NCBI RefSeq assembly: GCF_003226855.1
Contig: NZ_CP029820.1
Coordinates: 421,501-485,500 of the forward strand
DNA length: 64,000 nucleotides
Reading direction: 5' to 3'
Origin: Blattabacterium sp. (Cryptocercus kyebangensis)
GTDB lineage: Bacteria; Bacteroidota; Bacteroidia; Flavobacteriales; Blattabacteriaceae
The notes beneath the pieces were generated by a model. That model saw only the letters and a list, made by a program, of their open reading frames with translations. It had not been told where the DNA came from and searched no databases. Every line of letters starts with the position of its first letter. Position 1 is the first letter of the stretch. The position numbers were made by a program, and so were the translations under genes. Below, piece after piece: positions 15,781 through 54,314 of this stretch.

Positions 15781-16320
15781 TATTTTTTTGTATTTGAAGA
15801 AAAATTTTTTGCATGATTAAATCTTTTATAGAAGAAATTATTTTTGGAATAGTTTTTATAATCTTATTCCATTCAGGCTTAAGTAAAAATACAAAATCAT
15901 AATTTTTAGCACAAAAAGATTGTTTTTATTCTAAAAAAAAATAGATTCCATTAAAAATAATTACTTTTAATTCATTTTTAGGAGAAAGAGTAATCCACTC
16001 TATATTTTCATCATTAATTTTGTAGAATCCTGATGTTTCAATATCATGAATACGATATCCTTTTTTTAAGAATTTTTGTTAAAGTAGATAATTTCCACAT
16101 CATAGGTTATCCTCCTGTAAGAACGATTGTTTTTAATTTTTCATTGATTCTATTGATGATTTGATGAATTTTTTTAAATTATTTTTTTTTATTTTCCCAC
16201 TATTTTTAGTATCACACTAATTACATTTTATATTAGATCCTCCAAAACGAATAAAATATGCGGAGATTAAAGAATAATGACCTTCTCCTTGAAGAGAATA
16301 AAAAGTCTATTTTATTAGGA
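15781..16320 (-). pseudogene. queE: Decayed queE (7-carboxy-7-deazaguanine synthase)
   Basis: A 549-base stretch with no open gene. Translated on the minus strand in pieces it gives FYSLQGEG, AYFIRFGG, CDTKNSGK, KTIVLTGG, then ETSGFYK, WITLSPKN and FLLKPEWNK, which follow the order of QueE radical-SAM proteins. Lesions are clear: TAG stops in place of the residue two before FYSLQGEG and of the residue between the last two cluster cysteines, the first cluster cysteine changed to serine, a TAA where the glutamate of TGGEP belongs, and at least three frameshifts. The 3' end may run slightly into hisI. QueE makes the precursor of queuosine in tRNA; this copy cannot work. Confidence 0.85.
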
Positions 16321-16329
16321 AAGGATATA

Positions 16330-52149: not shown

Positions 52150-54314
52150 ATGAATCTATTATTTCTAGTTTTTTTTTTATTTATTTTTCTTGTATCGTGT
52201 AATATTATAAAAAAAGTACCGAAAGAAAAATATTTACTGAAAAAAAATATTTTCATTCTAAACGGTAAAAGAGTTTATTTTTCTGATTTGGAAAAATATG
52301 TAATAAAAAAACCAAATAAAAAAATTCATAATTTTTTATTGTTAAAAACAAGAATTTCAAAAAATACAAAAGAAAGGATTTATTGGAATTGGTTTTTTTT
52401 AAAAAACGGAGAAAAAAAAATAATGATAGAAGACCATAATTTAAAAGAAAATTATGTAAAAAATGTTAATTCAAAAGGATTTTTTGAGGATAAAAAAATT
52501 TTTTATATTCTTAGAAAAAAAAAAAAAAAATAATTTATACTAGAAGACCTTATTTTATAAACGAAATTATTTACAATTTTCAAGAAAAAGAGTTAAAGGA
52601 TATTTATATAAATGATATTAATTCTAGTTTAATTAAAAAAAGAGAACAATACAGTGAAAAAAAAATAATATTTGAAATAGAAAGGATGAAAAAAATGTAT
52701 GAAAATCATGGTTATTATAATTTTAATGTATACGATATTAAGTTTCATCTAAAACCTATAGGAAATCAAAAAATAAATTTATATATGGAAGTAAAAAATT
52801 TCCATAATCATAAAAAATATTTTTTCAATAAAATTGTGATCAGAATCAATAATGAAAAAAAGAATTTTTTCATTTACAATGGATATAAATTCTTTGTTCC
52901 TTCCGATAAAAAATTGAATCCAAAAATAATCACGGATGTTTTAACTATTTTTCCTGGATCTTTGTATAAAAAAAAGGAGGTTTTAAGTACTCAACAAAAT
53001 ATTTATTCTTTGCATAACTTTAATATTAATCAATTTAAAGTAGAAGAAGAAAAAGATCCCAATTTAAATTCAAAAATAGCCTTTGTAAATGTAGAAATTT
53101 TTTTGAAAACTCTAAAAAATAATGAATTTAAATTTTATTTAGAAAATTCTATCTCCAAAAAAATGGATATAAAAATCAATCCAGAAATCACTTTACTAAG
53201 TAGAAATATCCTACAAAATGGATCTAATTTTATGTTTTCTATAAAAGGAAGTTTAAATTATTCTCCAAAAAAAATTTTTAACCTATCCAAAATTTCCTTG
53301 CAAGGAAATTTAATCTATCCAGGATTTATTTTCCCTTTTATCTCATCTATGATTCCTAAGTATTCCTTATATAGTCCTAATACTTCGATTATTTTTCAAA
53401 TAAAAAGTAAAAAAAATATGGATATAAGAAAATCCATATTTTCCAATTTTATTAATTATGAATGGAAGGTAAGCCCTTATAGAAAACACCAAATAAAAAT
53501 GAGCACTTTAAAAGTGATCAAAAAAATTATTAATTCCAAAAATGGGGAGGGGGTAGAAAAAAATAATTATCATTTTGATCCAAAAAATCCTATAAAAACG
53601 AAAAAAAGAAACAGGATAAAGGATTATTTTATAAATTCTATTATTTATAATTATGAGATAAATCAATTTTTGGATCATAGAAAAAAAAATCCTATTTCAT
53701 TACGTGGAAATATAGAAATATCTGGAAATATTTTATATTATTTATTTCATAAATTACTTTTTCCTTATAAAAATAAGTTATTGAATAATATTTTTTTTGT
53801 TAAATACGATTTAGATTTCAAAAGATCTTTTTTTTTATCTAAAAATAATTCCTTAATATCAAGGTTATTTCTTGAAAAGAATTTTACTTATGAAAATATT
53901 CCAAAAAATTCTTTTTCAGGAATATATGAATTTTGTAAAAATGATATAGAATCGAATAGTATTCATCTAGATTTAGATAAAAATTCATCATTTAATAAAA
54001 TTTTATTAGTCAACGAATATAGGAATCAAATCCTTTCTAATTTTGTTTCAGTTATTTTTTTTTACCTAGAAAATAGAGGACTGTTAAACAAAGAAAATAA
54101 TCATTCAAAAAAAATAGGAAAGTTTACATGGAATCCTTTTTATAAAGAATTTTTATTAGAAGGAGGAATAGGAGTTCGATATGATCTTAAATTTTTTGTT
54201 TTTTTTGTGGATTTTTTATATAAATTTTATGACTCATCTAAAAATGGATGGATTATAAATCATATAAAATTAAAAAAACCATTGATCAATTTTGGAATTG
54301 ATTCTCCTTTTTAG
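52150..54314 (+). CDS. tamL: TamL-like Omp85 lipoprotein, frame broken at a run of 16 A
   Basis: An outer-membrane Omp85-family protein of the Bacteroidetes TamL/BamA-like lipoprotein type, for assembly or translocation of outer-membrane proteins. From the ATG at 52150 the signal ends in FIFLVSC (lipid-modified C17), followed by VPKEKYLLKKNIFILNGKRV. Reading stops at TAA 52531-52533 straight after A16 (52515-52530). In another frame, open from the tract itself, family text continues: RRPYFINEIIYNF, SSLIKKREQ, MYENHGYYNFN, on to a beta-barrel end PLINFGIDSPF. One extra A joins the frames to about 721 residues. The ATG at 52075 is an alternative start. Expression probably depends on polymerase slippage. 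Confidence 0.8.
52515..52530 (+). repeat. Homopolymer A16 inside tamL
   Basis: Sixteen consecutive A between an AG and TAATTT, the longest homopolymer I noticed in the window. Read as it stands it gives five lysines and a stop; 17 or 14 A restore the frame to the downstream part of the gene. Confidence 0.9.

Follow-up and report, generated by a model that had tools for sequence, protein, structure and literature searches.

A tamL gene split at a run of 16 A in a Blattabacterium genome, and the tolerance of frame breaks at A runs suggested by nadD across the genus

The gene for a TamL-like outer-membrane protein in this Blattabacterium genome is divided between two reading frames at an uninterrupted run of 16 A, which raises the question of whether the gene is dead, is intact and miscounted in the assembly, or is still expressed through correction of the frame at the run. 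The window analysed, 64,000 nucleotides in length, corresponds to C1:421501-485500 of the 637,356-base genome (G000); tamL lies on its forward strand and is described in window positions. The 5' part of the gene (52150-52533) encodes a lipoprotein signal (MNLLFLVFFLFIFLVSC) and the first periplasmic segment, 127 residues in total, and the frame of ATG 52150 passes through codon AGA (52513-52515) and five AAA codons directly into TAA (52531-52533). The 3' part (52515-54314, 599 residues including the lysines encoded by the run), which comprises what remains of the POTRA region together with the region of the C-terminal barrel, lies in the -1 frame, which is closed upstream by TAG (52512-52514) and has no stop from 52515 until 54312-54314. 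Because TAA abuts the A16 run (52515-52530) on its 3' side in one frame and TAG abuts it on its 5' side in the other, the change of frame must fall inside the run. A preliminary description of this DNA had reported an N-terminal domain ending at a stop right after the run and about 1.8 kb of open frame beyond it, and both were located exactly as described; its statement that one added A, or two removed, would join the halves also holds as frame arithmetic, and a -1 ribosomal shift would serve as well. An independent start of the 3' part at ATG 52686, which opens its longest ATG-started frame (52686-54314, 542 residues), was ruled out, given that this frame has no signal peptide and a restart product would therefore not be exported.

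The 5' half matched the NCBIfam model NF052279 (lipo_TamL) at model positions 2-129 (E = 6e-12, 44.7 bits) and the 3' half at positions 129-747 (E = 5e-65, 220.3 bits), the two matches abutting on the model and together spanning its full length. Neither half reached the family cut-off of 400 bits; the intact gene of the relative G042 scored only 214 bits, and that of G018 scored 444 bits. Inspection of the translation revealed a lipobox (LVS-C) at residues 14-17 of the 5' half, and a Pfam POTRA match of 23.9 bits, above its cut-off, was obtained for residues 39-94 of the 3' half, while the C-terminal barrel was visible through the NF052279 alignment alone (an AlphaFold model from a six-row alignment had a pLDDT of 29.6 and was set aside as too poor). 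The TamL-like identity first proposed from the letters was thus upheld by profile hits running end to end across both halves and by the lipobox. Judged by sequence, the gene is tamL by orthology to that of G018, with which it has 60% identity and two neighbour genes in common.

The two nearest relatives, G042 and G001 (91.6% and 92.3% DNA identity to G000, respectively), carry intact orthologs that are 82-83% identical to the 3' part. Their open frames of 744 and 712 residues, respectively, continue in frame across the run site, where the run is interrupted (AGAAAAAAGAAAAAAACAGG in G001 and AAAAAGAAGAAAAAAAAAAG in G042), and each is missing part of the first domain still present in G000; the tamL of G018 is full length (793 residues) and likewise in frame at this site. 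This comparison, which the preliminary description had recommended, found the G000 frameshift in none of G001, G042 and G018, and the A16 run in no relative, indicating that the break is private to G000. The suggestion that slippage at the run sets the level of TamL found no support, since no relative carries the run. The ancestral run was probably interrupted, as it is in G001 and G042, and loss of the interrupting bases, through a net deletion of 22 nt relative to G001 (seven codons plus one base), would have left an uninterrupted run that is one base out of frame.

Throughout the 1.8 kb located 3' of the run, comparison of G000, G001 and G042 revealed no stop and only whole-codon indels. 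The dN/dS values of tamL were 0.43 for G000-G001, 0.50 for G000-G042 and 0.43 for G001-G042, and on these ratios the gene in G000 is without extra relaxation compared with the intact pair. Changes polarised to the G000 branch amounted to 24 nonsynonymous and 13 synonymous; in the absence of selection the expected ratio is 3.75 to 1. A branch codon model did not reject an omega of 1 (lnL -6240.27 with omega free versus -6241.59 with omega fixed at 1), its power being low because the outgroups are near saturation. The intergenic rate was 0.186 frame-shifting indels per substitution, 5.8% of random substitutions in the tamL sequence create a stop, and the terminal branch was roughly estimated at 56 to 108 substitutions; for a gene silent over the whole of that branch this predicts about 13 to 26 disruptions, and none was seen outside A16. 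By this rough estimate, any silent period of tamL takes up no more than some 10-25% of the terminal branch. The preliminary description had reasoned that a dead gene would show more stops in a genome where queE is so visibly decayed, and tamL is indeed otherwise undisrupted, but the missing stops only bound the age of a silencing to that fraction of the branch. The decay of queE was confirmed, in the form of an old queE-like remnant, interrupted by numerous stops and shifts, at 15781-16329 on the minus strand. G001 and G042 also have no open reading frame at that place, where the identity of the remnant was read from its translation.

A bound on age leaves a serious rival, namely that tamL was just knocked out by replication slippage in the long run and has had no time to decay; it has to be taken seriously because the gene is fast-evolving and is absent or broken in most genomes. 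The dN of tamL exceeds that of 451 of 462 orthologs, placing it among the fastest 3%. A protein search of 49 genomes of the genus recovered tamL in seven and gave no hit in the other 42; a long TamL match is kept in only six, and the NF052279 profile yielded the same long matches. Weak matches to this profile in other genomes, in open reading frames of about 800-890 residues, were taken to be putative BamA. The copy in G021 is a shredded remnant, and those in G046 and G008 are degraded as well. In G008 (L014, L115) there is a 641-residue frame without the lipobox cysteine and the first domain. In G046 (L013:3220-3250) an extra base near the 3' end produces a TAA that borders an A15 run, and slipping at that run could not mend the gene because the stop precedes it. 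The gene is therefore under loss in the genus, most of the 49 genomes having no copy, a remnant or a broken one, and the loss of a gene that evolves fast and is mostly gone from the genus needs no rescue. Recent loss nevertheless appears rather unlikely in G000, as silence can have lasted for about 10-25% of the terminal branch at most and as the hardly dispensable nadD, lolD and rnhA carry the same type of break without decay, so that a gene of this genome with a break at a run need not be dead.

These three belong to a set of at least seven further G000 genes that are otherwise intact and whose frame breaks within or next to an A/T run when G001 and G042 serve as the reference. Outside the window, frameshifts relative to both close relatives were found in rnhA, ubiE (C1:108626-109364, A11), menA (C1:255412-256328, T11) and mvaD (C1:354601-355526, A12), the last being the least certain, with its break close to the start of the compared open reading frame. 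The runs differ in length from those of relatives in three genes likewise outside the window, nadD (C1:322069-322658, A10; A11 in G042), rnhA (C1:512547-513037, A13; A14 in both relatives) and lolD (C1:589391-590052, A8; A9 in G001), and an unnamed gene at 20.4 kb is split at T9. Copies of lolD in separate pieces were also observed in G018, G021, G036, G041 and G019. Two Blattabacterium genomes in the literature list this gene as a pseudogene (PMC6039017), and those copies may show the same run effect.

The A16 of tamL is the longest A/T run of the whole genome (the next are 15, 14, 14 and 14). The window contains 55 matches to A10 versus a shuffled expectation of 26.6, an excess of about twofold that is usual at 25.5% GC, so long runs are not special in themselves. 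Loss of mismatch repair as a source of run instability was ruled out: the genome encodes MutS as well as MutL in open frames, and A16 is therefore not explained in this way. Breaks in G000 were found at about 1 of 138 runs of length 10, 2 of 31 at 11, 1 of 8 at 12 and 2 of 4 at 13-16, with the states of tamL and menA assigned by eye from the comparison with relatives, and this climb with run length also speaks for recent loss. It could further be supposed that the assembly has miscounted a real run of A17 and that tamL is intact, given that stutter in sequencing and PCR is most severe at the longest run of the genome, and that base loss is the direction of nearly all of the listed G000 breaks, which miscounts of run length can produce as well. 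Most of the other long runs scored are in frame (29/31 at length 11, 7/8 at 12 and 2/2 at 14), which argues against miscounts being general, and lolD and nadD are broken in many other genomes too, each assembled separately; we consider a miscount at A16 distinctly unlikely.

One case of such recurrence is the NAD-synthesis gene nadD, which is split at a single common run. Among 48 genomes (loci L194-L242) the gene is in frame in 11, off by -1 in 29 and off by +1 in eight. In all of the out-of-frame copies (37/37) the run is 10 or 11 A long, whereas in seven of the 11 in-frame copies it is shorter or interrupted (Fisher p = 4.5e-6, for genomes that are related and provide only two well-supported independent pairs). 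The part 3' of the run measures 141-150 codons in all 37 and has no internal stop, with a median dN/dS of 0.37, and at least 12 changes of frame state were counted on the gene's own tree, many branches of which are weakly supported. The pattern is unlikely to reflect error or gene death, because a miscount would have to hit one run in 37 genomes and a dead gene would not have remained intact in lineage after lineage. It suggests that the genus tolerates frame breaks at A runs.

This tolerance makes rescue of tamL plausible, since 37 of 48 genomes of the genus keep an undecayed nadD whose frame is broken at A10-A11. We give about an even chance to the proposal that tamL, frameshifted inside A16, has its transcripts partly corrected by RNA polymerase slippage, with the production of some full-length lipidated TamL. 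RNA polymerase would slip on A16, so that the full-length lipoprotein would be encoded by a real share of transcripts, those with 17 A (or 14 A) in the run, and the uncorrected transcripts would give a lipoprotein fragment of 127 residues. For a weakly needed gene, partial rescue may suffice to slow decay here despite the loss across the genus. A single frameshift in an A/T run of at least nine, in an otherwise intact gene under purifying selection, marks genes rescued in this manner and was found in tamL; a frameshift kept across species, another such mark, was found in nadD and not in tamL. The rescue put forward in the preliminary description is thereby partly sustained: the break lies inside A16, other decay is absent and nadD provides a precedent, but tamL is weakly kept and its break is private. 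From these comparisons, tamL is probably a recent member of a slippage-tolerated class, corrected in part of its transcripts.

Rescue of tamL could instead occur in translation, by a -1 ribosomal shift on A-AAA-AAA in place of RNA polymerase slippage. The run offers many such sites, the direction needed is -1, a stop follows immediately on the 3' side, and a review reports long-known ribosomal shifting on A runs. A -1 shift would mend only one of the two wrong frames of nadD (29 and eight genomes), whereas polymerase slippage would mend both, and because both are tolerated, slippage fits nadD better than a one-way ribosomal shift; for tamL we regard the ribosomal alternative as highly improbable. 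The evidence is about evenly balanced as to whether slippage during transcription is a regular component of gene expression in Blattabacterium, through which nadD, out of frame in most of the genus and moving between both wrong frames, and newer breaks such as that at A16 would be tolerated.

The phenomenon itself is already known. Frameshifts at poly(A) runs are rescued by transcriptional slippage in cell-wall genes of Buchnera and a histidine gene of Blochmannia (Tamas 2008 and Wernegreen 2010, as cited in PMC5009743 and PMC3017870), the reported share of transcripts corrected at such runs is 12-50% in symbionts of aphids and ants (PMC5009743), and enterobacterial RNA polymerase slips in runs of at least nine (PMC6260861). 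G000 resembles these systems in having a lone frameshift inside an A/T run of an otherwise intact gene in an AT-rich insect symbiont, and in having several such genes (at least eight, versus 4-8 in Blochmannia). It differs in being a Bacteroidota symbiont, in the longer run (16) and in a private tamL break known here from DNA, whereas the Buchnera and Blochmannia cases, as described in those sources, have cDNA evidence and some are conserved between species. For Candidatus Walczuchella monophlebidarum, likewise a flavobacterial insect symbiont, the authors noted as a possibility that genes with frameshifts in runs may retain function (PMC3971599). The genus-wide case of nadD is the more interesting result and the one worth following; nadD and Blattabacterium were not found named together in the literature searched. 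If the proposal is true, the tolerance of frame breaks at poly(A) runs, shown experimentally in gammaproteobacterial symbionts, would extend to a Bacteroidota symbiont, nadD (37/48 genomes, both wrong frames) would provide a test case through cDNA of ordinary cockroaches, and annotated pseudogenes of these genomes, such as lolD (PMC6039017), may be working.

In Flavobacterium johnsoniae, TamL and TamB are both essential (PMC12045153). The G000 protein is like the F. johnsoniae TamL in its family, in its lipidated N-terminus and in having a TamB partner encoded elsewhere in the genome, although F. johnsoniae needs TamL and tamL is mostly missing in Blattabacterium. Among the 49 genomes a TamL match never occurred without TamB and a TamB match occurred without any TamL match in 19, TamB being matched in 26 genomes that include all seven with any trace of tamL.
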